Position numbers and translations under genes: made by a program
Notes under the pieces: model-generated
What the model saw: only the letters and a program-made list of their open reading frames with translations
Told to the model about the DNA's origin: nothing
Databases searched by the model: none
From: Allacma fusca
Lineage: Eukaryota; Arthropoda; Collembola; Symphypleona; Sminthuridae
Length of the DNA: 64,000 bases
Assembly: GCA_947179485.1 (NCBI GenBank)
Contig: OX359248.1
Location: forward strand, 47,936,847 to 48,000,846
Direction: 5' to 3'
Shown here: positions 4,699-62,766 of the stretch, piece after piece
Layout of the letters: each line of letters opens with the position of its first letter
How positions within the stretch are numbered: position 1 is the stretch's first letter

Positions 4699-6178
4699 AT
4701 GGGTAATCAAGGCATTAGGAATGGATCGGGGTGTGAGGGGATCCCGGGGAAAGTAGTTCTTAGTGATGTTCTATTCCCTCCAGAAAAACCAATTGACATC
4801 CCTAGAATCTCACCAGAACATTTTAATTTCAAAGAAAAGGCAAGAATTCAAGGGGGAGAAAATGATCACTCGGGGAAAAGTGAGAAAAAAGGTTGGAAGA
4901 GATTCGGAGGAATTATCTTTGGACTCAGTGCAAGTTTCTTTTTCTCACTGACTATTGTCATGGTGAAGACGTTGAAAAATTATCATCCCTTTGGACTCTC
5001 ACCATGCTTATTTGCTGGGACGGCTTTCCCAGCCATACCCATTTTGTTCTACTACCAATTTAGGGGAAATTCTAAAGTCAATGTTTTTGAGACTGTGTGG
5101 CCGCTGGAGAAAAGGGCAAAGCGAATAATCCTTTTGATGTTAATGGCAAGCTTTTAATTAATTACAGACAAAATTAATAAATCAATTTATAAAGCTTTAA
5201 TTAATTTAAAAGTGCATTAAATATTTGACGTATGCTTCCTCATATTATCTATAACAGACGCTAAAATTATTTCGAAATACATACACTATATATTTTTGTA
5301 ATTATACATTACGTTGTTTTTGTAAGAACGAACAATTTTTTTCCCGAAGATTCGAGCCATTCTTGGAAGCACGTCGGTCTTCCTGCGATTCTACTCTTTG
5401 AAGTACATGAGTATTGCAGATTCTTCCGTGATATCCCACTCTTCCCCAGTTTTTGTAGTCATCATCGCTCATTTTACTCTCAAAGAGAAATGTGGTTTTG
5501 TTCCACTCTTCGTAGCCCTGGTAACTTGTTTCGGTGTTTTTGTCATTTTTAGACCACCAATCTTGACTGGGAGTGAATCCTTTGATTCGGAAACTTTGGT
5601 AAGTGCAATAATTGATTAATATTTCACTCATTCACTTTGAAATAATAAAAGCATTTTTGCTGGAGAAGCTTCACCGGAGATCATAAATGAATTATATTCT
5701 CCAGACTGGCTCAATCCTCGCCTCATGTGCAATGCTCATCAACGCTTTCATGTTCATTGTGATGAGGAAACTCCGTCAAGTACACTTTACCTTAATGCTG
5801 GTCAGCTTCGGACTATGGGGACTGGCGGAGTCATTAATTATTGGAGGATCGATGGGGGTACTACAATTACCTTCGAATCTACAGGAGTTATTACTAACCT
5901 TTGGGGTCATGCCTGCAACCGTTTTTATGGGACAGATTTCTTTAGTGTTAGCTTTGAAGTTCGAAAATGCGGGACCAGTTTCCCTGCTTCGAACATGTGA
6001 TGTTGTTTTGTCATTTCTGTGGCAGTATATATTCTTGAATGTGATTCCGGATGGTTGTAGTTTGGTCGGGGCTGTGATTGTGATTTTGGGAGTGGTCGTA
6101 ACCGCTCTTCGGAAGTGGGTTTCAACTTTAGGACCGGAGGATTCTCATAGGAAGAAACTTAGTTTTTTCCTGCTGTAG
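4699..6178 (+). CDS. SLC35G-like EamA-family membrane transporter
   Basis: Multi-pass drug/metabolite transporter related to animal SLC35G1-type proteins (EamA family); the substrate cannot be told from sequence. Exons are 4699-5145, 5350-5598 and 5705-6178, all joined in phase 0, giving 389 aa against roughly 365 for the family. A charged N-terminal tail of about 70 residues precedes the first membrane span near residues 75-95. The first EamA repeat carries the family-like stretch GSTSVFLRFYSLKYMSIAD around residues 153-171, then IFRPPIL; the second repeat covers exon 3. The first intron has a GC donor (ATG|GCAAGC) and a TTCCCGAAG acceptor; no GT donor there keeps the frame. The second intron is GTAAGT to CTCCAG. 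The gene stands alone with no operon-like partner. Confidence 0.9.
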
Positions 6179-10327: not shown

Positions 10328-13300
10328 ATGGCAGAACAGCCTGAGGACGCGGCTCCAACGGGTCAGCTAATCAAGGGAGGGTATATTAATTACGGTAGTA
10401 ATTCTGTGACGGTGAATGTTTCTAACACCAATAATTTTCCTCGTGAATTGTATATCATCCCTGAAACCAGTCAATACTTCCATGGACGAGAAGCTCAGAT
10501 AACACAAATATCCGAAGCTATTGAAGAACGGCTTAGCGAAACCAACTCTTTCCACAGAACGATCATTCTCGTCGGATTTGGAGGAATGGGGAAGAGTGAG
10601 ACAGCAAAAGCCTTTGCTGAGAAGTTTCACAAAGCCTACGAATATATTGTGTGGATTGATGCTCAAACACAGCAAAGTATGGAAGCCAGTTTCAGGAAAT
10701 TAGCCGACAAATTGAAGATAAAAATGAACTCACTCGCGGATATACCGGAAATTCAGGAGGTTCTGTCAAATTCCTACAAAAAGGGATTATTCATCTTCGA
10801 CAATGCAGAAAGACTATACACTACAGATCGCCAACTCGGCATCGAGGACTGTTTATATAAAGAATTTCTACAAAACAAGCCTATTTTCTTAGCCACATCC
10901 CGCAATGGAAGCGGACAATGGGGTGGCATTAAATCAAAAATTAAGTTGATTAATATTGATACTCTAGCAAAGGAAGAAGCCACTAATGTATTGAAAAACT
11001 ACTTGCTCATTGAAAAAAATACGTCTGTTCCAGAATCTCTGGAAAACGCCATTTCTTTGTTGGTGGACGCTTTGGGTGGCTATCCTTTGGGGCTGAGTCT
11101 TGTTGGTTCCACAATAATGGAAAAGGCAGAAGAGTTGTCATTTGAAGAGACCGAGTCCAGGATTAAAGCTTATACTACGATTTTAAAAGACGTTCCTCTT
11201 CAAGATATCTCTGGGGAGTTTAAGTACGAAGCAGCTCTTGAATTTATTTACAACAAAACGATTGGTGAAATCAAGACTCAGGACAATGGGAACCTTGCAA
11301 TTGAACTTCTTAATATCATGACATGTCTGGATCCGGACGAGTTGTATCTAGGACTGGTTGACGCGATCTGCAGCGGAACAACTTATGAATTCAATAAGAG
11401 CAATAATTCTAAGAATGTGAATGTGATTAAAGGCTTTAAAATACTGATGGATTACTCGATTGTGAAAAAGTACGACTCGGATAGATTGCAGATACACAGA
11501 TTGATTCAGCAATGTACACGTAAAGCGCAAACTTCTCAGGAAGCGATGAGTAAAATCTGCAGGTTTTTTGAACTAAATGAGTACAACATGAATGGGCGGG
11601 GCCATATTGTAACTTTAATTGACATGTTGTCAGCCAGGACAACGATTGACAATAGAAGCTATTTTATGTGCTTACTAGTTTGGCGATATTGCTTGGAAGA
11701 GCAGAATTTTCAATTCGAGAATATACAGAAGTGCAAATCTTGTTTTAATTTTGAAAAATCAGACGAATCTTTCATGTTTAAGTTGGCGGAGATTTATTGG
11801 AGTTGGAACAGAAAATCTGGTTGGCCAACCGTCAACTGGGAAGAAATAGAAACAGAAACTCTTGGATTGTCACAGCATTTGTCAAGTCAGTTTTGGGTTA
11901 CAAGAGCTCTACTGACTTTCCTAGAGGAATGTTTGATTTACAAAATGGTAAGAGTTGTTAAAATATTTTTTTATCGTGATGGCAATAAATTTCTTAAGTA
12001 ATCAAACAATTATTGTAATTTACTACATATTATTCCTTTATTTGTGCATTAAGCCACTGATGCCGTCTACAAGGGATAAAATCAGCTCTTATATTATTAA
12101 CCGATGCTTGGACTTTCAATTGGAAAAACTGGAGGTTTTAATTGAAAAGGGGTTTCTTAAAACGATGTATGGATACAAGAGTTGTCGAAATGTCTGTCAA
12201 GATTCCTTATTTCTGAAAAGACTTTTTAATTCTCCACGAGAGGAATTTAGGAAAAAGCTGTGGCTGAATGTTTGGGTAAGTATATTTGCATCTGTTCTTT
12301 GGATTCTCTATTAGCTAAACTCCGGTTTAAATTGCAACAAATATTAACGAAAGTAAAATATTTATTAATATACAAGTTTACAGGAAATTATTCTGCATAA
12401 AAACGCTTTTTTTAAATTTGATTGTATCAAAGTAATTTCGAACGCAAATTTTATTTCTTTTGGGAAGGGATTCTGCGTCTAATATAATATTATTCAAAGA
12501 TTATATTATTATTACTAGAACCACTTAAATAATACCTATAGGTATTATTTAAGTGGTTATTGCATTGTCTAAATTTGTTACAGTCGTGCCCATCATGGGT
12601 ACAGTTAGTAACCGCGTTTTTGGATACAGGCATATGTCCAGGAACAAAATTTTGGTCTGTTTTGGGTACAAAAAATTCGTACCCTCAAATTTGTGTTAAG
12701 TTGTGGTTACGCGTATATAAGAATACTTGTTGGAGTGGATTGCATCAGCTACAGGTACGTTGGGATAAAATAATTACCTGTACCTGATCTCAAAATACCT
12801 GAACTATTTGGGTGCTTTAATGGAAATAAAGTCAGGAAAGCAACCACTAACAAAGTCTGTTGTGTATAAAACGAATGTGATTTTCTGTGAACCACTTTTC
12901 TACTATTTGGCATCTTGTATTTATGATTTTCTTTTCCAGTGATTCCAGTTGATTCGAAAATGAGGTTTTCGAAAATGTATAACTATTTGTCTAATGTAAT
13001 TGTAATCGTTTAATTTAGTTAAGTCATTTGACAGTTTAAAATGTGTTGAAATTTTCACTGCATTTTTAATTCTATATTTAGTGAATGCGAATATTTAGAG
13101 TATAATTGTAATAAATACAAACATAATTACTGATGCTTGTTTCAAGTATGTACTCACACTCCATCACGTCGTACTATCATTGTCATGTAATTTAGAATGT
13201 AGTACTAATAGTATTTTCACAATTTGAAAAAAATTAATATTTTTGTGTAGTAAATTCCTATCCTAATAATTTTAAAAACTACATTAGTGCGTATGAGCAT

Positions 13301-16300
13301 ATCTACATATATGCCGAATAGAAAATATCGCCACGGTATCTTTGTAGTTGTCTACGGAATGTCATTTGACGATGAAGTGGAGATATCGCATCCCCGGACA
13401 ATTCGTCATCCAGAAGATGTTAGGGCGATGCCATTAAAACATTTTTCTTTACTGTGGCGATTATCGCATATCTAGTTTAAAATATCCCCTAGATATCCTT
13501 ATAATATCGCTAGCTGATTACATCACTCGATCATTGAAACAAACTTAAAAATTTTGGAACCGGATTTGCAATCTAATGAGAGAATAAAATGTTGAAAAGG
13601 GGGCAGCACCGTATCAGGTATGTATCTAAACAATCGTCCAAACGCGTAGTGTATCTGTGTACGTATTGTGCGTTTAGATACCCTATACGTTGGGACGATT
13701 GTGTTTAGATACCTTTTGCGTTTAGACGATTATTACACGATTAGGCGATTATGCGCATAAATCTATGCGTTTAGAGGTTATACGTTTTGCCATTTATGCG
13801 TTTAGGTATGATACCGAAAAAACACATACTAGTTATATTTTCCACGTTTATGGTGCGGAAAATTAATGAGGGTTGACTATTAAGGTTACTAGGACAAAGA
13901 AACTAGGTAAAAACCGAAATCAATATGCCAAAAATAAATAGGTGCACCAAACCTTCAATGCACGACTAAAATTCGATGAAACAAATATCTTAACAAATAA
14001 ACAATGTATTACAAAAGGTTCAATTGTTTTCAGCACCTACAATCGGAAGCTAATGGAAATAATGATTTTGTCCGAAACTTGTATTCAGTCTGTGGGATGG
14101 ATTTTCTTACGTCATCTTTGAAATTTACTTATTCCGAAGGGAAGGAGAATATTGTTCATAATGGCAGATTTTTCGACTTATTAGGTATTTTTAATTGACG
14201 ATATTTTCTTCATCTTTTTGTTTTTACTCTTCCAAATACTCTAAAATATGCTGTCCAAAAATATTTTAATAATTGTCGTAAAATAAATAAACATGGTAAT
14301 ATTTTTAGCATTTATCTCCTCCAACCTAATTTAAATCTTAAAGAGAAGTTAATACTTTTAAATGATACTATTTTTCGCTTGTTTTCGCTATTTGACGCCA
14401 GGTTTCTGTTTTTAATTAACCTTACAATTTTAGGTTGTCTGTGTAATATGCTGAATCCTACTATGAACCCCAAGATATTTCTGGATTTCACAGATTTCAC
14501 AAAACCCTTTTTAGGTGTTTTAAATTTGTGGTTAAATATGCCGAATTTACAAGTCAGGTTATGTTGCAGCCACTTTGATATTGTTTTAAATGCATCATGC
14601 GTAATTAAACATAATTAAACATTTAAAATAGATATTCCGGGAAGTAACCTTATGACTTTTAATATTATTTACCTAGATTGATAAATTATTTCAACTAACC
14701 TCAGCGCTGCTTACGTTGTTTGTGGAAGATGTGAAAATATATAACGAATTTCAGGAGGATGGTATTGAAGAATTATTTGAACACAATTTCATGAGGATGT
14801 TGATATTTTATCCATTGAAGCCATTACATTGTATTGAAAGGTTAGCTAATTAATTCCTGTTTAATTTGGTTTAACATTTGTACAATGCTTTTAATTATAT
14901 TAGCTTGAAATCGAATGTCGCCTTGGACCAAATACCCCTGTTTTCAAAACTGCTGAAAGATTCGCAAAGAAAGGCAAAGTGGGTGACTGCATTACTCGGC
15001 TTTATGGATATAATACAATGGCAAACCGTTGTAAGTTTTTAATTTGATTATTTATCATGTATTATACTTGATTTATAACCCACCTTGAAGGCGATGACTA
15101 CGTTCCCCTTCCTCTGTTAACTTTTCCAAATCGTTCTTTCTTCAAGGGACCCAGAAATAAAAAAGTGGGTGCTCCAAAATTGCACAACGAAAAATTTCAA
15201 GGAAATACATGTGAGCAGTTCCTTGGGATGTTGACGACTCACTAGTACTTAAAGCATACTTGCAACCGTTCAGTTCATAAAGTGGTGAACTGAACTGAAC
15301 TAGCCCTTATTCTTATTGTTTTTGAATGAACATGAACGAACTAGCTAAATGCAAACTTTTGATTGAATGAATTTGAATTGAACTCAGAAAAACTTATTTT
15401 GAATGTAAACGAACGTTCATCATACGTTCATGTAACGCAAATTGAACTGAATTGAACTTAAGAGTCAGGGATTAAATATAAGTTCATATAATCATGATCA
15501 CAAAACGAATATTATACATGTATTCCTAAATTGCATGATAAAAAATGTTATTTTTGTAATCTTAAGAGCTAGTCCCCATTTTTTGATTCTCCATTTCAAT
15601 GACATTAAATTACAAATCAATCAAATTGCTTACATGCAAACAGATTTTTACATTCAAGAACGAGTATTCAGCACATTTTAGTCGAAGTTGCATGAATTAA
15701 AAAGCCCAATAATTGTAAGCAGAGTTGTATGATTTATTAATTTGGAAGCGCTTGGTTTTTTACTCTGATTGTTTATCAGAAAGTTCAAAGTCAATACTGC
15801 TTTCAAAACACCGGAGTTTTGAAAGCAGTTATTTAATCAGTCATTTAGCAAAAAATCTGGCTTCAGTCAAAGTTCAGAGTTATAAAAATAAAACTAAATG
15901 TCACTTATGTAAATATATCGTAATTGTCACGCTAATGACAGATAAAGTGAACTGAACTGAACGACCGAAAAGTATATAATGAATTGAATTGAACTTTGAA
16001 AAAATACTGCAAGGATGAACTGAACTGAAAGTAACGACTGGAAATTACGCAGTGAATTGAACTGAACTACGACAGGATTTTAACAAGGGGAACTGAACTG
16101 AACTGAACGATACGAAAAATTTTGGGATGTGAATCGAACTGAATTTGAACTTTGGACCAAAACTGCAAGTAGGACTTAAAGTATTACGACTTACAATTAG
16201 CCGTGAGGTGGCGCGAAAAAATTCCGGGTAATGTGCGTTTCGTCTGAGAAACAGTTTTCGTTCTGTCTATATAATATCACAGATACAGCCAACTACGACA

Positions 16301-19300
16301 AGTATTTGTTCCGGTTTGTTTTCTGAATATAAACAGTACTGTGAGGACTCACAATATTGTTATTATTATAATAAATAGTATAATAGGATAAGGTAATGGA
16401 GGTGGATGAACTGGGGTTCTGACTGTAACTGAGTAAATGAGCCCACCAGGAAGACATCCTTGTGGCAAGTTCGATGGCAAAGTAGAATATTGAAAAAGTC
16501 AGTCACTAATTATTAGCTAACCCGAAGCATCTAAACATTTGGCTCTCATAACTTGCCAATAGCCTGAAGTAGATTAAAGGCAATTATTTGTAAGTAAGCC
16601 CTAGTAATGAATGCTCACAGTACATACACATGCAACCCCTGAAATGCTAAAATAAGAGGGTGAGGTTAACTATATGCTTTAACTACAGTTTAATACATAT
16701 CGTCGCTGAAGAGGCAAAATGGAATACATGCAGTTTTACTAAATGCAAAATGGAATAGATGCATCAAGTTTTAAAAGCAATATGGTCTACTTACAATTTC
16801 GTCTAAAAGCAAAATGGTCTACATACAATTTCGCTTTAAAGCAGAAATGCCATTATGAAAGTATACACGCATGTAGACCATTTTGCTTTTAGTGAAAACT
16901 GCATGTAGTTCATTTTGCTTTCAGGAAAGCTTGCAACTATTCCGTTTTGCCTTTAAGGAAAAAGGCATGTAGACCATTTTGCTTCTAATCGAAATTGCAC
17001 TTAGTCCATTTTGCCTCTTCAGCGACGATATGATCTTATCCATACTCACAATTTAGGGAAACTACTCCCGAGGAGAGATAGAAAACCGTTTTTGCCATAC
17101 AATGTTCGAGGTCTGGGGCGTTGACTGGTTTATTACTTCCCTTAACTTTAGAGATGATTACGAAAAAGGCAAATGGTGTAAATTCTATTTTCGAGAATAT
17201 CTGGGCAAGTTCATTGCATATAAATATGCATACTCTATAAGATTCATTGTATACAACGCAAACATTTAAATCTTTGTGCATTCAATTCTTACATATCGCC
17301 GGCTAAACTTGCTAACCGCATACAATTTAAAATGTTTAGAATGAGAGAATGACTGTACAACCATCTTACTGGAAACTCTACTGTAAAAACCTTCCATGAT
17401 TCCCCTCTGCTCTTCTGCTTCGCGGAGCGGATTTATTGCAAGAGGGAATTATGGCCGGTTTTTACTTTAAAGTTTACAGCGGAATCACTGCAACCGTTTT
17501 TTATTTTATGCATTGGGTTAGCAAGTTTAGTCGACGATATGCAAAAGATTAAGCCGTAGAAAAAGTTATGAAAAAATTGTTCGTATCTCATATTTTCGCA
17601 GTTTCATTGGTTTAACGGGTTTTGTTTTCACATTACAGATAAATTACTGAGAGTCTGGGTGGTCCCAGGAAATTTGTCCGAATTTGTGAAGTCTCCAGGT
17701 TTTTTAAATACGTTCTTGGACATAGGGAAACTCCGCCTGGAAAATATTCATTTTTGTTACGTATGTAGATATTGTTATGCTGCTGCTGAGATAATTTATT
17801 ACGATCTCATTTTATGAGCCACAAATTCTGTATTTACGAGATTTTAATTTTAGGAATGGCATGTATCTGAATATTTCCGCCTATCATTCGCCTTTATTTG
17901 TCTGATTTGTTTGGATAAGAAGATTTACGACGACTTCAGGGTCAGCTTGCAAGCATTATTTGAGAATGCATTTAAACAGTTAATGGAAGAATTTAAATCA
18001 GAGGAATGGAATGTCCTTGAATTGTAAGTGTTTTCTGAAGTTGGGTTTTCCTGTACTCCTGCTACAGTGAAATTCTGATGTGGCATGTTGGTTTTTCTTG
18101 TCGAATTTTTTTCCCCTCCAAAATTTCCTTTGTACTGATATGGTACCAATTATCAATTTTGGCATCTCTTTTAAAGCAATGACAAAAAACTGACAAAATG
18201 GTTTGTCAGTTGTCAGAAAAAGTTATCCTAATCAAATATTTTCTCAGGTTAACGAAGAGTGAAACGGATAATCGTTTACAAGAATTTGATCTGAAAGTAA
18301 ACAATTGTAATTGGAAACCAAAATGGGCGACTGACTTTTTAAAAATCATCAACAACCCATTACAAACTGATAAGAATTATTCCGTTCGCACTCACGAATG
18401 TTATTTAGCTGCCGTGTATTTAGTAAGTATCATCCGAAATACAAATTATTATTAAAAAAATCTAAAATTGAGTTGCTTTTGTGCAGAAGTATAAAACAAG
18501 ATTCAGCTCAAATGGGTAACACATTAGAGAAATTTTTCACCTGTATCAAGAAATTGCAAGATCGATTTTGTTCGACCAAAAGAAACACAATCATTGCGAC
18601 TACGTATTCTTGGTCAGCTTAATAGCGGTAATAATATTAAAGACGCAGAAAACTTAAATTACATAGATTAAGCAAGATAAAATTGAACTAAATATATTCT
18701 TGAATTTTACAAAAAATGATCGCGTTGCTTTTGGTCGAAAAAAATCGATCTTGTAATTTCTGGGTACAGGTGAAAACATAATGTGTTACCCATTTCAGCT
18801 GAATCTTATTTTATACTTTTAAGAGTCGAAAAGACTTGCTGTGGTTATTTTTTTGCGGTAATACATTTAGTGATAATTAAGTTAATAATAATTAACTTTC
18901 TTTCTCAATAAACAATAATAATATACTTTATTCTTATGATTTAGGAAATCATATCCAGAGAAGATATAGAAAATGAATATTGTAATAAAATATTCGAAAA
19001 ATTGGGTGTAAATGGGTTTACTAAATCCCTTAGTTTCATACATGGTGAAGAAGGGAACGTGTGTTGTATTAAATTCAAAAACTACTTAGGTAACGCATTC
19101 CGATATTTACCTTTCAAAATTTAATAACTAATAACTTTAATAACAGAATTAATTTGTGGAATGCCTTCTTCAAAACACTATCTTTAACGAGATGCTAGCG
19201 ACATTTTGTTTCTATTGATTGATATGAGTTTTTAATTGTTTTTGACTGATTTTTGACAAATATTAGGTAATTTATTAAAAGTCTGGAAGACCCCTGGAAA

Positions 19301-20377
19301 CCTGGCCAAATTTGTGAAGTCTACATATTTTGTAAAATTATTTAGGAACACAGGAAAACTTCGGCTACAAAATATTTGTTTTTATGATGTAAGTTTAGTC
19401 TTGTTCATGTTAAATTTATTAAACAAGATTTGATAAATTGCTTCAAAAATGTAATTGATTTCATTGTTAGGGGTCTGAAATACCTGAATTCTTCCGCCTA
19501 TCTTTGGCTGTTATTTGGATGTTTGACTCTGATAAGAAACTTTACGACGACTACGTCAGTTTGCAACCACTATTTGAGAACGCTTCAACGCAACTAATAC
19601 ACAGCTCAGAAAAATTAGATGTGCGTGAAATGTAAGCGTTTGCTAATATGGTTTTGCCTTACTGCTAGTATATTTAATTTCTCAAATAGTGATTTTATCA
19701 TAAATATAAATAATTACTTCATTACTGTTAAGGTAAATATAATACTCTCCAACATACAAAATATTTTGTAACCTCTGTATTGTAATACCACTTTCTCCTT
19801 CTTTTATGAATCAATATTTTTGCGAACTGTTGATACATACACATGTCGAATCCAAAAAATACATTCCTTGAAATTCTCCACTACGAAAACAATTACTTTG
19901 ATTAACAAACTTACACCAGATATCACTATTATGCTTCTCACCGAATCTCCAGGCGCACAAAGCTTTGATAAAGAAATTTTGTGTGCGGTATCCATTACCT
20001 GGATTCCCCACACACAACAGTGTTTTGGGTATACAGGTATTGGTATTATATTGCCGGTAATGGGGGTATTATAATACATACATTTAAGTTCCTACTAAGT
20101 CAGACTCGCATGTACAAGTAATATCAAACGGTATCTCAATGTACCAGCGTGTGTATTGACAGTACCTGAAAACCACTAAAAATTTACTGTCATTGAATTA
20201 ATTAAATCGTTTTAAAATGTTTATTCATGTTTCTATTCCAGATTATCCAAGAGTGAAACGGAAGGTGATTTGAAAGAATTTGAGTTGAAAGTAACAAATT
20301 GTAAGTGGAAATCGAAATGGGCGACGGACTTTTTGAAAATCATCCAGGAACCTCAACGAAGTTGCACCATATTTTAA
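10328..20377 (+). CDS. NB-ARC/STAND P-loop ATPase with tandem C-terminal repeat modules
   Basis: Putative signal-transducing ATPase of the STAND class (NB-ARC, as in APAF1-like and NLR-like proteins); an immune or cell-death role is only inference. Exons: 10328-11947, 12054-12275, 12584-12754, 14034-14184, 14434-14552, 14677-14840, 14904-15030, 17057-17204, 17639-17760, 17854-18023, 18248-18422, 18945-19089, 19267-19388, 19471-19631, 20242-20377. Every join keeps frame and the product is 1250 aa. Visible motifs: FHGRE at 51-55, Walker A GFGGMGKSE at 83-91, Walker B LFIFD at 154-158, FLATSRN at 197-203, GYPLGL at 241-246. No N-terminal CARD, death or TIR domain is evident. From about residue 515 onward the protein consists of about four diverged, helix-rich modules of roughly 190 aa; the last three are encoded by exon quartets with matching phases. 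The intron after 17204 uses a GC donor. Introns carry a hAT element, foldback elements and a palindrome. Confidence 0.88.
12519..12558. repeat. 40-bp perfect palindrome in NB-ARC gene intron 2
   Basis: The 18-base left arm AACCACTTAAATAATACC is followed by TATA and then its exact reverse complement. It sits 25 bases upstream of the exon that starts at 12584, so it can place a strong hairpin next to the branch point and acceptor of that exon. Confidence 0.9.
13605..13818 (-). repeat. fragment of the GTTTAGACGATTAT repeat family
   Basis: Many degenerate copies of GCGTTTAGACGATTA and its relatives lie in the intron before exon 14034. Read on the minus strand, 13700-13816 aligns with 49258-49390, sharing the order GGTATCAT, AAACGCATAA, GGCAAAACG, CATAACCTCTAAAC and AATCGTCTAAACG. 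It is therefore an inverted fragment of the larger element at 49.2-52.3 kb. Confidence 0.7.
15243..16186. mobile_element. hAT-like non-autonomous element
   Basis: The left end TAGTACTTAAAG and the right end CTTAAAGTATTA are imperfect inverted repeats; a second matching block, ACTTGCA, lies further in. Flanking 8-mers are CGACTCAC (15235-15242) and CGACTTAC (16187-16194), a 7 of 8 match and the target-duplication size of hAT elements. The interior is dominated by GAACTGAACTGAA-type simple repeats and a 14-bp-arm hairpin near 15797-15832. No transposase is visible. It lies in the intron between exons 14904-15030 and 17057-17204 of the NB-ARC gene. Confidence 0.75.
16697..17031. mobile_element. 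foldback element, copy 1
   Basis: The ends read ATATCGTCGCTGAAGAGG and its inverse, with inverted similarity through most of the element. Inside, units of about 32 bases beginning GCAAAATGG run in one orientation in the left half and the opposite orientation in the right half. The right end stops 25 bases before the NB-ARC exon at 17057. Same family as 36979-37320 and 52880-53278. Confidence 0.88.
18486..18820. repeat. intronic inverted repeat with ~100-120-bp arms
   Basis: The left arm (about 18486-18605) and right arm (about 18715-18820) are imperfect reverse complements. Both carry AGTATAAAA, AGATTCAGCT, ATGGGTAACACATTA, AAGATCGATTTT and TTCGACCAAAAG when read in the same sense. It lies in the NB-ARC gene intron between exons ending at 18422 and starting at 18945. 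The family is not recognised. Confidence 0.8.
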
Positions 20378-23146: not shown

Positions 23147-24540
23147 TCAGAGCTTTGCCGCAATAAGAAGGTTGCTGGACAGACTCGTTACAATCGCTCC
23201 TACCGTAAAAACCGTCTCTTTTTTTACCACATACAAAAAGCTGACGTACACCCCTAAAGGTCTATATGCTCTAAAAGTAGCTTTGTCCAGTTTGGAATCC
23301 GCACAATTTTTCCAGGATTCCAGGAAACTTTTGGATTTTTCATGAATTTGAGCCACTGTTGGAAATAGTAGAAACTCAACAGCAAGCCAATTTAAGAGAC
23401 TCGTCGGGAACAGTAAGTAACTCGGCATTGGAATTACTTCGTAGAGTCTGATTGTTATGAAAATCGTCAAGGAATGTTGTATTATATTGAATATCTTGAT
23501 TGTCGGCCATATTGAATTCTTCATACAGTAGTTGTAGAGTTTTTCTAAAATCAATAATTTTTTGTATAATGAAAAAGCATGGGCAGCATTCCGAATTTTC
23601 TGAATTGTCATATTGTTTGGTTGGCCGGACAATCTGGAAATTTTAAATTTAATGGTTATACAATCACATTTTGGAGACATTACAATTTTCTGAACAACTC
23701 AAAACGAATGCAATTCTAAGATTAAATGTATATGTAAATTATACATTAATGATGAATATAAACAGGTAATCGGACATACGTGGATTGCGTTAGCCAAAAA
23801 GTGGTAGCTTTAGAGTGCATGAGTATAAAATACCAATACAGTAGACATATGAACCATTGTTGCAAATAAATGTAGGACTGGAGCAAGAAGAACCCTCCCA
23901 AAAGTATTTTCGAAGATTCATATTCTTGTGGTACGAAGGTTGAGAACATATAAAAGGAACTGGTTGGTTTATGTAAAAATAATGTTGATCCTGCAAGACT
24001 CATTACGAAGGCTACAGTTGTTAAAGTTTGAAACATAACCTCACAGTTATCTCGTTTCAGAGCATTTGCTCGAACAAAATAATTACCTGAAACCAGCAAT
24101 AAATCCTTAGCATTTTGAGACTTGATATCATACTTTAAAAAATTGTTTTATAAAAACGTATTTATTAACTTACGCTTATACTTTTGACTCAGGCTGATAG
24201 TGTTATTTAGTAAATTTGCCATTTCTGTTGATTTCTTGAAATTGTTAATCTGACCCACAATGGATGCACAACTCCATTGGAATAATGTGAAATGTACCAT
24301 AATATTTGCAGGTGACTCCGTGGAGCCTATGAAGCAAGTCACTACAGCGTGAAAAAGATGAATTGTATTGACAATCATGAGGGAAGCATTTGCTTTACAT
24401 ATTAAAGACATGTATTTATCCTTAACTGGCTGAATACGGATTTCATCTTGGTGTTTAGTTACCTCAAAGGGAATAAGTTTGAATTTCTCAGCTAATTTTA
24501 AGAAAATCCCAAGGATTCGAAGCGTTGCAGGTGTGAACAT
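23147..24540 (-). CDS. chemoreceptor (gustatory/odorant receptor-like), complete
   Basis: Seven-pass chemoreceptor of the arthropod Gr/Or superfamily, predicted to sit in sensory-neuron membranes. Exons on the minus strand: 24540-24174, 24086-23780 and 23633-23147, giving 386 aa. Donors are GTAAGT and GTATGT; acceptors end GTTTCAG and ATTTCCAG; joins are in phases 1 and 2. An in-frame GTG upstream at 24564 is less likely than ATG 24540. Hydrophobic segments occur near residues 55-80, 90-110, 130-160 and 170-200, and again in exon 3. The C-terminus carries the loop RPLGVYV followed by the last hydrophobic span with KKETVFTVGAIVTS, typical of the conserved final helix in this family. It resembles the gene at the left edge only in architecture. 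The ligand is unknown. Confidence 0.76.
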
Positions 24541-24564
24541 GTTTGCTCCGTGTAGAACACACAC

Positions 24565-27500
24565 AGCCCACTTGAGTACACTGACACTAACTGAAAAGAA
24601 TTTCTTAAATATCTGTCGGGTAAAATTAACTGCTTACTATACAGTGGTGTGTTATATAGTTGCGATACTAATTATAATTACTAATAGTGTCGTATTAAGT
24701 TAGTCATTAGTTTTAAAGTAAAAATGTGATGATCGCTATTTACAACACTCTCCGTGAGAAGGAAAAATTAGAGCACGGTCAAATCGGAAAATAATTCACT
24801 TTTAAATACTTAAATAATACCGTACTATTCTATTCATTCGGAATTCCGCCAGAGAGTAATGAAAATGATGGACACAAAGCAATCGATGGCATGAATTCTT
24901 ACATAAACGTACGCAGCAGTGTGCAGCATATAGGGGAAATGTATTAGCAATAGTCAATAATTATTTGTATTCAAATAATTAGCCTTTACTCATTTTCATG
25001 GCATTAGGGGAACCTCAGATGATGTAGAACAGTTACAGTAAAAACGTAAAGTTAATGCCTCCAATTATTTTCGTTTGAATGAATGATCTGAGATGTTTTG
25101 GCACGTATTATGCTATCAATTATTGCAACAATTATTACAAATTTGTTTGCATTACTGTAAAGAAATACAGCCGAAGTAATTATTACTTGGACTAGGAATA
25201 AAATTAATGCCAACCGTTATGGGCAAGAACGTGGGCCAATTTAGTATTCCAATGGCGCAAGGATTAACTCAAATTTGACCTACAGCTATGTATGCACAAC
25301 CGGAAATTATAGTAATATTAATTTTCAGTGGGACCTTCTCGTTGAACGTAACAGCGGACTAAAATTGATTTTCATTTACCTCGCTTCAATGGTGCGAGAA
25401 TTTACTTACTGGGTGGTGATGGTGACCCCAGTAAATTCTGTCACCGTCTGTAGCGAGATAAATACATCAAGCTTATGCTAATTGTAACATACCCAACCTT
25501 CGTAAAACAAGTGGTACTTCAAAAGGGACAAATGAGTGACACGTCAAACTGAAAAAAATCTTGCCGTACCTCTTATTGTTAGATCTGATCGAAAATCTCC
25601 CTAACCACAACCTGAAAAGTTCCTTGCATATAAAACCGAAGAGGCTACATTTATTCTATAAGGAACGCATAAAGCTCCATCTATCGATTGCCTAAAAAAC
25701 CCAGGAGTAGGGGGCTTTATTTTCTGTGCTGCCCGTGGTGAAGCCGGTGGGTGAAGACAATTCTTGAATTATTTCAAAGTTAAGTTTTTGTTCCGGCGCT
25801 TAAATCTTTTTCTGAAAATATTTGAATGCTATGTTGTAAATTTAAACGAAAAAAACATTGTAGCATTGTAGGTTACGAGTTAATAATAATTATTATGTTG
25901 AAAAATTCGGAGAATAAAAAACTTCAATGCAATCTGCAATAATTCTAAAACATGTTAAATGTAATGCATGAGCACTACAACCATCAGTACCAACATCACT
26001 ACGATGCTTCAAGTATGGTAGATATTCATACATGAAGGAAGCGTTCACAATAACACTCCATGATGGTATTTAATAGATTGAAGGAGGATACAATTTACAA
26101 ATCATAAGCAATAATACCAAGTAAATGATTGAAATGGAATAAATTTGTACAAAGATGAACCAACTTTGGTGCCTTGAGAGTAAACAAAATATATTTTGAG
26201 AACTCACTTAATTGGTTTCTACGAATTCATCAACAAAACAATCTCCCCCTAATTTTATTTTGCAATTTGCAATCGATCAAAAGGTTGCTGGTACATATCG
26301 CTGGCTTCGTTGGCTAAATTCTAAAGTGTTTGTTTATTTTATTATTGTAAAATTGTATTTGCGAAATTAGGGAACTACTGTACTGAGTCCTGAGGGAATT
26401 TCCTAATTAATAGACCAAATTAATCGTCGCCAGCGCTCATAAATTTTGAGATGTTATTGTAGCCATTAATAATAATTTTATTATTGGTACACGAGCTTAT
26501 CCACCACACACTTCCGCGTGCTTAGAGCTTCTGTAATCACATAACTCAATTCGCATATGTATGTGTATTTAGCATTAAGTAACCATTTAATTTCACTTAT
26601 TTGTAGGGTATGAAGAAACAATTCATTGTCCCCTACAAGACCGCATAATGAGGTATGTTAAAAAAACTTACGTTTCCTCATAATTTGCAAAACTTTTTTC
26701 ATCCCGTTTAGCACAAAAATCTCGGTAGATTGATCAAGGAAGTAAAGCAAACTCAGGAAATAGCAATTTTTCGCAATATGTTTTGTCACAGAGCCTACAA
26801 AGTAATACTAACTACATTGACACTTGAGTCAATTAGCCATTAGCCAGTGGTGGTTATGCAAGAAAAGTATTGGCTCCAAAAAAATACTTGTAAAAACTCT
26901 AAAGGGAAATTTTTAACTCGGATAAAATTTCACGTAAGCTAATACTTTTAAATATAATAATTTATGGAATATTAAAACTGTAAAAACGTTTATTTAAACA
27001 AAAACACCAAGTCTACGATGAGCATAGCTAAACTCTACTCCAATATGGATTCAGGAGTGGTAGAGCAAGGGTTTTCGAGAATTTGTGTTAAAGGTCCGGG
27101 GGAAAAATCCGTTTTATGTATGATGGGGGGGGGAAATATTTTTTTTAACGCCATCTTTAGGAGGACTAGAGGGGGCCGTTACTTGATCGTTACTTGACAC
27201 TCTGTAGTTTCCTGATTGCAACCTTAATGCTCAGCTTGCAATTTAATCGTTCAAACGTGTGCTTATAATTATACATAAGTTCTCATATACGATCTCAATT
27301 CAAGATGATCAAACTAACTATTATGCATATTAAGCGATAAAAATTATATATATGTATATGTATGTGCATACCATATTGTATACTAGTGAACTGTAATTGC
27401 AAGATTGGTCTCAAGTCTAAAGTGGTAATTTTGACGAATTGTATGTTATTATTATACAGAAAGCATTATTCTTTCTAAAACAATATTGTTTTTATTGGGT

Positions 27501-35514: not shown

Positions 35515-36978
35515 ATATAAAATGATGACTTACATAATTACTTAAACTATTCCCAGGAACTCACAATAAGACTTATTGGTGAATCATACCTACGAAAAGG
35601 TTGAGGAACAAAATTGGCGTGTCCAGTTTTTCGAAATTGTTTTGTTTCATAATAATACACTTCAAAGCAAGGGCCATTCGTGGGTTAAATTCTAAGAGTT
35701 AATTAATTCTAAATAAATCTGAAGTGTGTACAATAATTCGGTCAATAATTGTGTAATCATGTAATCATGTATAGCTAAAACTTAGTTCATCTTTCTGCTG
35801 CAAAATTTTCATAATGGACTTATGACTAAATGACTCAAAATGGAATTTTATAATCCTGACTAATTTTCTGAAATTATCTTTAGTAACCCCATCAGATTTT
35901 TTTTAAAGTAAATACATATTCATATGACTCGAAATAATATATGAGCTAATTAAGTATTTCTAAAATATTTTCCGCATCCTTGATTACAAATTTGCTGCAT
36001 TAAAAGACTAGCTATTGTGCTACAACCCAAACCAATTTTTTAAATAACTATTATTTAAAAAAATATGCAGACTACATCTGTGGGCTCTTCTGATTTCAAC
36101 AGTTCGATTTGAAACAATTCTGATTTATTCTGTCAACAATGTGATATGTGATACATGTACTCAAGAACTCAAGAATATCCGAATTCGCCACAAAAGTTCT
36201 GACCCATCTTGAGGAAATATCACTCTTTATTAATGCAGACAAATCTTGAAGATGAGTTACTGCATGTATTTCTTTTAGCTCAATAATATGGCAGTACAAA
36301 TTATCCATCGTGGACAATAAAGCAGCTCAAAACCTTTGAGTGGACTGGTCAGATTCAGTAAATCTGGTATAGGCTTGCTACAGATATTCTGAAAAAAATT
36401 CAAACTAAAAATAAAGACATAAACTAAAGGGAAAAGTTTTAATTTTTCACTTATATAACTGTATGGAGGAAACATTTAGCAAAATTACTTCTCAACAAAT
36501 GTTAACCTATTTACATTATGCATACACTCACATTATGTATGCAAGGTCTTCCATACATTCACATCACTTGTTCTTGTTTATTCTGTATCTGTATTCTGTA
36601 CTGACAGTTGAATGGACTCATTGTCAGCTTGCTCAAGAGCAGGACATTGCGTTGTGAAACATGTCCGTCTCTCAAGAAGCCTGGAATGATGGAATTCCCA
36701 AACGCCCAATTAAAAAATATACACTGGCTTATAATTATTACATCATAGGAAACTTAAATGGCAAGATACATCTCTTTATGCAATGCCATCACATATAAAT
36801 AAAATGCAAAGTACCCTGGCTGCTGTAGTACGCATCACAGTAGGGGAATTATCATGTATCCTCTATAATTACAGGTAATTATGCTCTCGCTATAAAGATG
36901 CCCATAAATACATACAGGGGCCACACAGGTTGGATTCACCCCTGTTTACTACTTAAAGTTGTAATTTTCCTCCTTATA
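35515..36978. other. intergenic, no gene recognised
   Basis: AT-rich spacer between the LRR gene and the second foldback element. Short frames (36096-36317, 36275-36475 minus; 36463-36657 plus) have no supporting features. Confidence 0.55.
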
Positions 36979-37320
36979 ATATCGTCGCTGAAGAGGCAAA
37001 ATGGAATACATGCATTTTGGATTAAAATCAAAATGGTCTACATGCAGTTTTACTAAATGCAAAATGGAATAGATGCATCAAGTTTTAAAAGCAAAATGGA
37101 ATAAGTGCAATTTCGTCTAAAAGCAAAATGGTCTACATGCGTGTATACTTTCATAATGTATGTAGACCATTTTGCTTTTAGTGAAAACTGCATGTAGTTC
37201 ATTTTGCTTTCAGGAAAGCTTGCAACTATTCCGTTTTGCCTTTAAGGAAAAAGGCATGTAGACCATTTTGCTTCTATTCGAAATTGCACTTAGTCCATTT
37301 TGCCTCTTCAGCGACGATAT
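36979..37320. mobile_element. foldback element, copy 2
   Basis: Same ends (ATATCGTCGCTGAAGAGG and inverse) and the same inverted array of ~32-base GCAAAATGG units as 16697-17031. Much of the right half is almost identical to copy 1, including AAAACTGCATGTAGTTCATT and CTTGCAACTATTCCGTTT. It is intergenic. Confidence 0.9.
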
Positions 37321-38490
37321 GTAGCATGTCCATTAAGAGTCAAATTAACTTCCCGTGTCGCTCTTATATATGTACTGCAACAGAAATCTGAATGTGCATC
37401 CATCCTTACATTAATAATGCATTAAAGGGAAGTTGGAATGATGAGAAAATGTAGTCAATATTTTCGGCATTTATTTTGTGGTGCTGTCACTAGGTTCAAC
37501 TCAAAGGGTTCAAATAAATAATTTAATGAATGCATTATGCGTGAAAGTACAGAGCCATAGAAGAGCGACATCGTACTATAAGGAAGGCCACTGCCACCGA
37601 AAATCGATCCACTAAACTGAGTTTCAAGCAGTGCCGGCTCCCGTACGTGCCTCACTGGTGCTCTCTCCGTTATGCAATCATCAGTTCCGTCTCTATCATA
37701 TGCTCTTTTTCTACCGGGCTATCTCAAGAAGTTCAGTCACAGGGCAGGAGGCACAAGTTCACTTCGTGGTCTTGTCTTTAATTTCTTCTACCGATTTCCC
37801 ATTTAACGATCCCACTCATTATCATTAGACTTGTGGAGGGAACGTGGAAGCGATTACATAATACACTTGCCCTGGAAATACATATCTGAGTATACGCTTA
37901 TCAGTTGATATCACTTCCAGAAGTTCAGTGCTTCAATCAACTTCAATGTTAACCCATATAATTCTAAGGTTTGTATAAGGGTAGCCTCATTCCTCAATTT
38001 ATGCAAGCAGAGAAAGATAACTATAAGTTATTCACTATACGCTTCTCAGAAATATTCCATCAATCCAGCCTTTTGTCAGTCGGAATTCCCAGCCTCCGAG
38101 AGTACAGTATTAGCCATAGCAGGACTCTACTTTTAAATATTGAATTTACTGCCAACTGTCATTTAGACGCCTCTCCTATAGGGAAAAAGATAACGTGCGT
38201 AATGTATAAGAATCAATTAATATGTGCTTTGTCCGTATGGAGGACTAGCACGAGTAATTTATTCTGCCTCATCTTCACTTTAAAATAGCTCAACGATTTT
38301 ATTGTTGGTGGAGTGTGAGACAAAAACATAACAAACATAATGGTGAAGGTGACTCATTGTTAATTGAGAGAGTTGATATAAGTTATTGATGTGCACCTAT
38401 GCAATTTTATAGATTTCGGAATGCTATAAAGGTGGAACGTCCGCAGGCAACAGCAAATAAAATTAAAAGTGATTATAATCACTGAGTTAG

Positions 38491-40276: not shown

Positions 40277-48476
<8,200 letters not shown>

Positions 48477-52706: not shown

Positions 52707-52879
52707 AGAGGCTGTCTTGTCCGCACGATATCTGGAGAACCATTACTACTACACACTACAAATTTTTTACCGGGACAGATCATGCAAAAAGGAAGAATCC
52801 TGTTGTTTTTGAAGGACAGCGTGTCATCCTTTTGACCTCAGAAGATTAAATGAGGTCACGTATAAACTCATGGTAATAC
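52707..52879 (+). repeat. direct repeat, copy 1, left of foldback element 3
   Basis: Shares GATATCTG, AGAACCATT, CTACTACACA, GGGACAGATCATG, TTTGACCTCAGAA and ACGTATAAAC with 53607-53775. It stops at the left end of the foldback element at 52880, so the element was inserted into one copy of this repeat. Confidence 0.7.
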
Positions 52880-53278
52880 ATATCCTCGCTGAAGAGGCAA
52901 AATGGACTAAGTGCAATTTCGACTAGAAGCAAAATGGTCTACATGCCTTTTTCCTTAAAGGCAAAATGGAATAGTTGCAAGCTTTCCTGAAAGCAAAATG
53001 AACTACACGCAGTTTTCACTAAAAGCAAAATGGTCTATATGCTTGTATACTTTTATAATGGCAATTCTGCTTTAAAACGAAATTGTATGTAGACAATTTT
53101 GCTTTTAGACGAAATTGTAAGTAGACCATTTTGCTTTTAGACGAAATTGTAAGTAGACCATATTGCTTTTAAAACTTGATGCATCTATTCCATTTTGCAT
53201 TTAGTAAAACTGCATGTAGACCATTTTGATTTTAATCGAAAATGCATGTATTCCATTTTGCCTCTTCAGCGACGATAT
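52880..53278. mobile_element. foldback element, copy 3
   Basis: Same family as 16697-17031, in the opposite relative order of internal units and slightly longer. The left end has one change (ATATCCTCGC). Internal ~32-base GCAAAATGG units reverse orientation near 53060. The minus-strand open frame at 53201-53455 overlaps it and is not a gene. Confidence 0.88.
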
Positions 53279-53606
53279 GTGTGCACATTTGGGAAAACAG
53301 CTTGCGCTATCTATTGTAGCATTGTTGTAACATCGAATTGTCTGTTGTAACGACCGGTAGAGGTCGGGAGTGCTTGTACATGGTGTTGTAAAATCGAATA
53401 TGAAACGTTTTTCACAATTTACTAAATGCGTAATACTACATACAAGGAAGTACATGTATAAACCATTTAATGCGCAATTATATACAGAAACGTTTTAACG
53501 CGCTCATTATTATAAACTGGTAATGGTTACTGCGCACTAGTATGTATACAAACGTTTCAAGTCAAAATACTCACCGTGTGGAAACGTTTCATACGGAAGC
53601 ATATTA

Positions 53607-62125: not shown

Positions 62126-62486
62126 TTTTCTAAACATTCCTTCATTTTGATTAGCAAAATATGAAAAATATTATTTTTTACAACTTGAACTTCATTGAGT
62201 TCAAAATTTTCAGATTTTAGCAAATACCTCTATCAAAAAACCAGTTCGTGTTAATTTGCATCAAACGACGTAAAGATGTGAAACTACACGTGTAGTTTAC
62301 ATAAATACAAAAATAATGCTAGGTAAGATTTTAGCACAATCAACAATTGTCAGTATATGAATTAGTTAGTTTTTGCAACTTTAACCGCAAGTTCGGAATC
62401 AAATTTTCCCAAGAAAATAGGGCTTTGTAACAATTTATGGGTAAACTTTTTTAACTACAGGGAGGTCACTTATGGACTTAACTACA

Positions 62487-62766
62487 GGGAGGCCACTTAA
62501 AGAATTAATTAAAGGGAGGCCACTTAAGGAATTAATTAAAGGGAGGCCACTTAAGGAATTAATTAAAGGGAGGCCACTTAAGGAATTAATTAAAGGGAGG
62601 CCACTTAAGGAATTAATTAAAGGGAGGCCACTTAAGGAATTAATTAAAGGGAGGCCACTTAAGGAATTAATTAAAGGGAGGCCACTTAAGGAATTAATTA
62701 AAGGGAGGCCACTTAAGGAATTAATTAAAGGGAGGCCACTTAAGGAATTAATTAAAGGGAGGCCAC
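62487..62766 (+). repeat. 27-bp minisatellite, 10 copies plus a partial
   Basis: The unit is GGGAGGCCACTTAAGGAATT plus AATTAAA. Copies are almost identical (the first differs by one base), so the array is young or homogenised. Because 27 is a multiple of 3 and the unit has no stop in one frame, an open frame (62472-62798) of GRPLKELIK repeats arises; there is no sign it is a gene. Confidence 0.97.

Follow-up and report, generated by a model that had tools for sequence, protein, structure and literature searches.

The stretch of Allacma fusca DNA analysed here (64,000 nucleotides (nt), G000:C12:47936847-48000846; the window) contains a gene that encodes, in order, a short N-terminus, an NB-ARC ATPase, a DUF7779 domain, a linker and three modules (M1, M2 and M3) of four exons each (A, B, C and D). 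Its exons, joined from the sequence, are listed in Table 1. Paralogs for the comparisons come from loci fetched from the same genome (L001-L035), of which L035 was fetched after the profiles were built.

Architecture of the window gene

The three exon quartets lie at the starts named in the original prediction, an earlier reading of this DNA, and the phases of the exons are identical in all three modules, as it had claimed (A from 0 to 1, B from 1 to 0, C from 0 to 2 and D from 2 to 0). The modules are 187 (M1), 205 (M2) and 187 (M3) amino acids (aa) long, and the open frame closes at 20377. Acceptors are AG throughout, and donors are GT except for the GC after 17204. In every module the lengths of A+B and of C+D are divisible by three; thus, the quartet and both its halves begin and end in phase 0.

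Smith-Waterman comparisons of the modules (500 shuffles each) gave a score of 449 for M2 and M3 against a shuffle maximum of 66, 112 for M1 and M2 (62) and 111 for M1 and M3 (55). Identity is 53% between M2 and M3 and 23-24% between M1 and either. Alignment by hhalign of the M1 profile (9 sequences) with the M2-type profile (15) reached 98.1 (E 4e-15; 172 columns), whereas shuffled columns gave 20.7 at most. In comparisons of single exons (300 shuffles each), no more than 3 shuffles attained the score in eight of the 12 pairs of exons with the same letter. Taken alone, D1 gives two borderline pairs (score attained by 2-21 shuffles) and B1 two pairs without significance (55-119). Both exons are backed instead by relatives found in the correct order in the paralogs, and B1 ends at the same place, at an offset of +18, in L028 and L032. 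At the DNA level, M2 and M3 are similar in exons B, C and D (72-82%) and in none of the introns, which together with a synonymous divergence (dS) of 0.94 indicates that the duplication is old.

Exon 1, which carries the switch part, is based on its open frame, the donor GTAAGA and an alignment, over most of its length, with exon 1 of paralogs such as L029 (2-539), L016, L017 and L028. The Walker A motif of the NB-ARC domain, GFGGMGKS, starts at residue 83. DUF7779 is presumably winged-helix-like, so that a helical or winged-helix part would lie behind the NTPase. The NCBIfam model FxSxx_TPR (NF040586) matches residues 45-405, the switch part only (E 5.9e-28), with 97.8 bits against a curated cut-off of 300 for membership. 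Exon 2 is the best conserved tail exon among the paralogs (tblastn E down to 3e-28, L034). Exon 3 of the model is doubtful and may be intron sequence, because it has no counterpart in the relatives examined and L034 leaves only ~124 nt between exon 2 and A1.

The end of exon 1 and the exons that follow it had also been taken for a fourth, older module (M0). This claim is unsupported, with Smith-Waterman and hhalign scores within the range of the shuffles. M0 scores 46 against M1, a score reached by 11 of 500 shuffles, and is at chance against M2 and M3. A profile of M0 (exon 1 tail and exon 2; 13 sequences from the window and 12 loci, some nearly identical) gave hhalign scores of 14.8 against M1 and 15.0 against the M2-type, compared with maxima of 25.6 and 20.1 in 30 column shuffles each. 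After these shuffle and profile tests, M0 was rejected as unproved. Several weak M0 matches, including those with M1 and M2, place the end of exon C against exon 2 in the same register, and a very old relation of M0 to the modules may exist. The exon 1 tail and exon 2 are nevertheless conserved between genes, and linker is the best name for this part.

In the N-terminal segment before the NB-ARC domain (10328-10450), module-tailed and TPR-tailed proteins (L001-L031) have a weak common pattern, which in many family members reads T-G, then G, then V-x-x-N. A RHIM-type amyloid motif at the N-terminus, tempting by eye, was rejected, with Pfam RHIM unmatched in seven N-termini at E<=10.

Table 1. 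Coordinates of the NB-ARC gene, its exons and its domains in the window
Feature	Coordinates	Strand	Size and frame	Basis and remarks
Whole gene	10328-20377	+	15 exons; 1209 aa	Joined from sequence; internal stops: none
Exon 1	10328..11947	+	540 aa; ends in phase 0	N-terminal segment, NB-ARC, DUF7779, linker start
NB-ARC domain	10508..11161	+	Residues 61-278	Pfam PF00931, E 5.6e-10, 39.3 bits (cut-off 23.5)
DUF7779	11294..11533	+	Residues 323-402	After NB-ARC; Pfam PF25000, E 5.8e-8, 33.3 bits (cut-off 27)
Exon 2	12054..12275	+	74 aa; phase 0 to 0	Linker; splice sites
Exon 3 of model	12384..12431	+	16 aa; phase 0 to 0	Weak donor GTAATT; doubtful
Exon A1 (M1)	14034..14184	+		Splice sites, module comparison; relatives in L016, L017, L023, L025, L027, L029, L034 and others
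Exon B1 (M1)	14434..14552	+		Donor GTCAGG; equal-scoring alternative donor 48 nt further on
Exon C1 (M1)	14677..14840	+		Splice sites, module comparison; relatives in paralogs
Exon D1 (M1)	14904..15030	+		Splice sites; marginal alone in module comparison; relatives in paralogs
Exon A2 (M2)	17057..17204	+		GC donor GCAAGT; splice sites, module comparison
Exon B2 (M2)	17639..17760	+		Splice sites, module comparison
Exon C2 (M2)	17854..18023	+		Splice sites, module comparison
Exon D2 (M2)	18248..18422	+	21-residue end	End like other internal D exons; splice sites, module comparison
Exon A3 (M3)	18945..19089	+		Splice sites, module comparison
Exon B3 (M3)	19267..19388	+		Splice sites, module comparison
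Exon C3 (M3)	19471..19631	+		Splice sites, module comparison
Exon D3 (M3)	20242..20377	+		Terminal; stop codon 20375-20377; splice sites

A fold-back element resembling a miniature inverted-repeat transposable element (MITE), with internal 32-bp units, is present in three copies (16696-17032, 36978-37321 and 52879-53279), each flanked on both sides by a 27-nt inverted end with 0-1 mismatches; the first copy stops 24 bp upstream of exon A2. Elsewhere in the window are a 27-bp minisatellite (62451-62766; 11.7 copies, 97% matches, one open frame per strand), a piece of an ABC transporter gene (44675-45064, PF00005) and a piece of an EamA-like transporter gene (5687-6175, PF00892). Open frames on the reverse strand (332-1600 and 23150-24633) resemble chemosensory receptors by eye; the pieces 332-1600 and 23749-24147 have no Pfam match at E<=0.01.

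Modules and NB-ARC genes across the genome

Searches of the genome (392,743,791 bases in 91 contigs) gave at least 98 NB-ARC matches and 90 matches of the tail query, 12 of them in the window gene and 78 elsewhere, all 78 on contig C1. An NB-ARC match lies within 10 kb of 29 of these 78, within 20 kb of 52 and within 50 kb of 73; the shares for random C1 positions are 2.3% (20 kb) and 4.9% (50 kb). The claimed multiplication of a ~190-aa unit by genomic duplication behind NB-ARC is supported, both for the window gene and next to numerous NB-ARC exons elsewhere in the genome. A full quartet is also present on contig C8 (L021). Four equal-scoring NB-ARC matches on C1 (79525349, 79767035, 80003603 and 80274041) are 237-270 kb apart, and exon 1 of two of these copies, L009 and L026, differs by one silent change; the series reflects either recent large duplications or an assembly artefact.

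Exon profiles matched 33 A, 23 B, 34 C and 20 D exons in the window and L001-L034, the window's three of each counted in. Within a single 9-nt interval, an acceptor of the claimed phase lies at 24 of the 33 A exons, 20 of the 23 B, 21 of the 34 C and 18 of the 20 D, and the best other phase reaches no more than 3. Donors in the claimed phase were found for 19 of 23 B exons (best other phase, 2) and 22 of 34 C exons (4). The GC donor at the A/B border of the M2-type modules (17205 in the window) recurs in L010, L012, L015, L016, L017, L028 and L031-L034. In the same scan, GC is the donor in 13 of the 32 A exons for which a donor was seen, some of these 13 being near-identical copies, and in none of the 23 B, 32 C and 12 D exons. 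The D exons end in two ways: nine of the 20 reach a stop codon at most seven residues from the profile core and seven extend 21-26 residues to a GTAAGT donor, while four fit neither type (D1 of the window and one exon each in L029, L032 and L033). In L035, the NB-ARC exon and exon 2 are accompanied by two quartets in the same phases. Candidate acceptors and donors of the expected phase flank eight of its nine profile matches; the ninth, of 8 bits, has none on either side.

The number of modules per gene ranges from two to about six. Three consecutive NB-ARC genes on the minus strand of C1 (55.344-55.394 Mb) differ in this number: the first has M1 and four quartets, the second M1 and five (in one of which no A exon was seen), and the third lacks M1 and has two quartets. 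In the first of these genes no donor was seen for D of the leading M2-type quartet, so that the three quartets behind it are possibly cut off. L016, L017, L025 and L027 have M1 and one quartet ending in a stop, with B of M1 unseen in L025 and L027. A tree of 17 modules showed the four M1 modules apart (support 1.000), indicating that the split between M1 and the M2-type predates these gene copies; M2 and M3 of the window are not sisters in it, and its inner nodes are weak.

The midpoint-rooted tree of 31 NB-ARC parts places nine loci on one side (support 1.0). The TPR test, a phmmer search with the tail of one TPR-tailed locus (L006), found TPR tails in eight of these nine and none in the DNA examined of L003. 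The same test found no TPR in the other 22 loci, of which 15 show module exons in the DNA examined. A single tail replacement would be the simplest account of the tree and the tails.

For the four module pairs whose dS is >0.3, the ratio of nonsynonymous to synonymous divergence (dN/dS) is 0.26, 0.35, 0.49 and 0.64, the value for M2/M3 being 0.35. Purifying selection acts on the modules. Between L016 and L017 they evolve faster than exon 1 (0.64 vs. 0.37), as they do between the window and L029 (0.49 for window M2 vs. 0.27), and the order is reversed between L025 and L027 (0.30 vs. 0.55). Such ratios would fit a sensor tail but are no proof of one. In very recent copies the ratios exceed 1, at ~2.7 for exon 1 in L009/L010 and L010/L012 (10 nonsynonymous and one synonymous change each) and 1.19 for the modules of L010/L012, where the changes are too few for judgement.

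Nature of the module and explanations for the tail

No sequence test identified the module as WD40, LRR, TPR or ankyrin, in agreement with the original prediction: none of these Pfam families, nor HEAT/ARM, matched the 17 modules at E<=10, and the alignment with TPR tails was null. In the Pfam scan of the 17 modules no family matched more than one module, the best E being 0.0079; a few of the weak single matches were to helical proteins, such as Muted (0.0079), NEW1_HB (0.018) and EFR3 (0.04). WD40, LRR, ankyrin, HEAT/ARM and TPR are unlisted for the full protein at E<=1, and no match in the tail exceeds its cut-off. The profile of the 17 modules has no relative among PDB sequences (best E 0.29), PADLOC gave no tail match at E<=0.1, and the NCBIfam search of the tail gave only FlaH at 0.053, far under its cut-off. 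A relation to TPR was rejected after hhalign of the 17 modules with five paralog TPR tails (17.8, E 0.12, 23 columns), as was a repeat inside the module after alignment of its profile on itself gave no off-diagonal signal. The search for a prokaryotic relative, a scan of genome contigs with an M2 pattern that reaches close relatives only, gave 26 pattern matches, none confirmed. The hydrophobic moment of the module peaks at 105 degrees, a periodicity that makes helices likely. The module is probably a helical repeat of ~185-190 aa outside the libraries searched.

In known STAND proteins, NB-ARC and the domain that follows it are a nucleotide switch, and the tail repeats usually sense or restrain. 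The window gene is fairly likely to be an NLR-type (STAND) receptor gene of Allacma fusca with an unclassified, probably helical tandem-repeat tail, where the sister group has a TPR array. NB-ARC and DUF7779 would act as a nucleotide-driven switch that the tail keeps off in the resting state. Binding of a ligand or host protein by the tail would lead to nucleotide exchange in NB-ARC and oligomerisation, and oligomerisation would cluster the short N-termini for signalling. Because each unit begins and ends in phase 0, gain or loss of a quartet leaves the frame intact; quartets can thus be duplicated or lost whole, and tail length differs by gene. Expression, the helical superstructure, sensing, oligomerisation, signalling and the immune role are predictions from the sequence.

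Several observations weigh against this receptor reading. Pfam scans of the full protein and of seven family N-termini (E<=10) showed no N-terminal effector domain. On the module side of the NB-ARC tree, seven of the 22 loci have no module exon on the coding strand in the ~10 kb examined, and three of the 15 with module exons (L018, L023 and L024) have only weak or partial matches. Five tail matches (C1:2254642-2306173; 2.25-2.31 Mb) have no NB-ARC match within 50 kb; they are perhaps switchless modules, or their switch is too decayed to see. By the GT rule, A donors are weak (8 of 33 in the claimed phase, 4 in the best other phase), because many A exons use GC, and D donors are uninformative (5 of 20 vs. 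4). Some array genes have in-frame stops or gaps and N stretches, such as genes 1 and 2 at C1:55.34-55.39 Mb, and the long arrays may partly be decaying genes. Thus, the cluster genes are a better record of duplication history than of present function.

The in-frame stops in some relatives and the MITE-like element in the intron before A2 would also suit a relic, in which the array consists of decaying pseudogene copies and the window gene is unexpressed. However, the 15 exons of the window gene are stop-free with usable splice sites throughout, the dN/dS values for M2/M3 and for exon 1 against L029 are low, and the similarity of M2 and M3 is confined to exons, which makes a relic very improbable. 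The module could instead be an extremely diverged TPR or other alpha-solenoid, separated from the TPR-tailed sister group only by sequence drift. Its helical periodicity, the weak matches to helical proteins and the presence of TPR tails behind the same NB-ARC/DUF7779 in the sister group argue for such an origin. TPR has a period of 34-42 aa, whereas the unit here is ~185 aa with no internal repeat found; the modules are also split by introns, whereas the paralog TPR tails examined are open in one exon. Together with the null results against TPR given above, these differences make drift unlikely. A somewhat greater, still minor chance is given to a STAND protein that regulates something other than immunity, such as development or genome defence, with modules that bind endogenous partners. 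The N-terminal effector domain is reported absent in arthropod NLRs (PMC11508797), which agrees with such a regulator. Against it, the family is large and clustered, has copies that are almost identical and tails that vary in length, and in this appears to resemble birth-and-death receptor families. The receptor reading could be carried further to a new repeat fold at the sensor end of an animal NLR, in which the phase-0 quartets and their AB and CD halves are cassettes gained, lost and perhaps skipped in-frame, aided by the recurrent GC donors at A/B, to give receptors of different reach; this extension is speculative and held to be quite unlikely.

Comparison with known systems

Arthropod NLR-type receptors are little known. 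Full-text searches of the paper library used gave no paper joining NB-ARC with springtail, with Folsomia candida, or with arthropod and Collembola, and the words NACHT and NB-ARC are absent from the genome paper of another springtail (PMC5644144). The main observation proves right and extends further than a reading of the single sequence could show; the gene probably encodes a receptor of the NLR type whose unclassified repeat tail grows by exon quartets. If true, a hexapod genome has a large NLR-type family whose repeat unit is outside every library searched, with a clear record of sensor-domain growth by exon-set duplication. The phase-matched exon sets would be a testable case for alternative splicing, as reported for the LRR exons of human NLRs.

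The switch of the window gene is similar to that of the NB-ARC/DUF7779/TPR STAND proteins (NF040586 and the TPR-tailed paralogs), and its switch part aligns with those of the paralogs by phmmer. In contrast, its tail has no detected TPR and is split by many introns, and its bit score is far under the NF040586 cut-off. The arthropod NLRs of PMC11508797 are described as having no N-terminal effector domain, as here. Vertebrate NLRs (NLRP3 and kin) have an exon-modular LRR, which is called a precondition for alternative splicing in PMC6642158. Like them, the window gene has a STAND switch followed by a putative sensor domain with exonic modularity. The repeated unit, however, is LRR in vertebrates, whereas here it is a ~185-aa unit spread over four exons that no search identified as LRR. 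In fungal NLRs, as described in PMC4986451, WD, ANK or TPR repeats follow the STAND NTPase with varying copy number, and the highly conserved ones are >85% identical. Compared with this value, the lower identities between M1, M2 and M3 give no sign of recent homogenisation in the window gene. The two systems are alike in having repeats behind a STAND NTPase in numbers that differ between copies.

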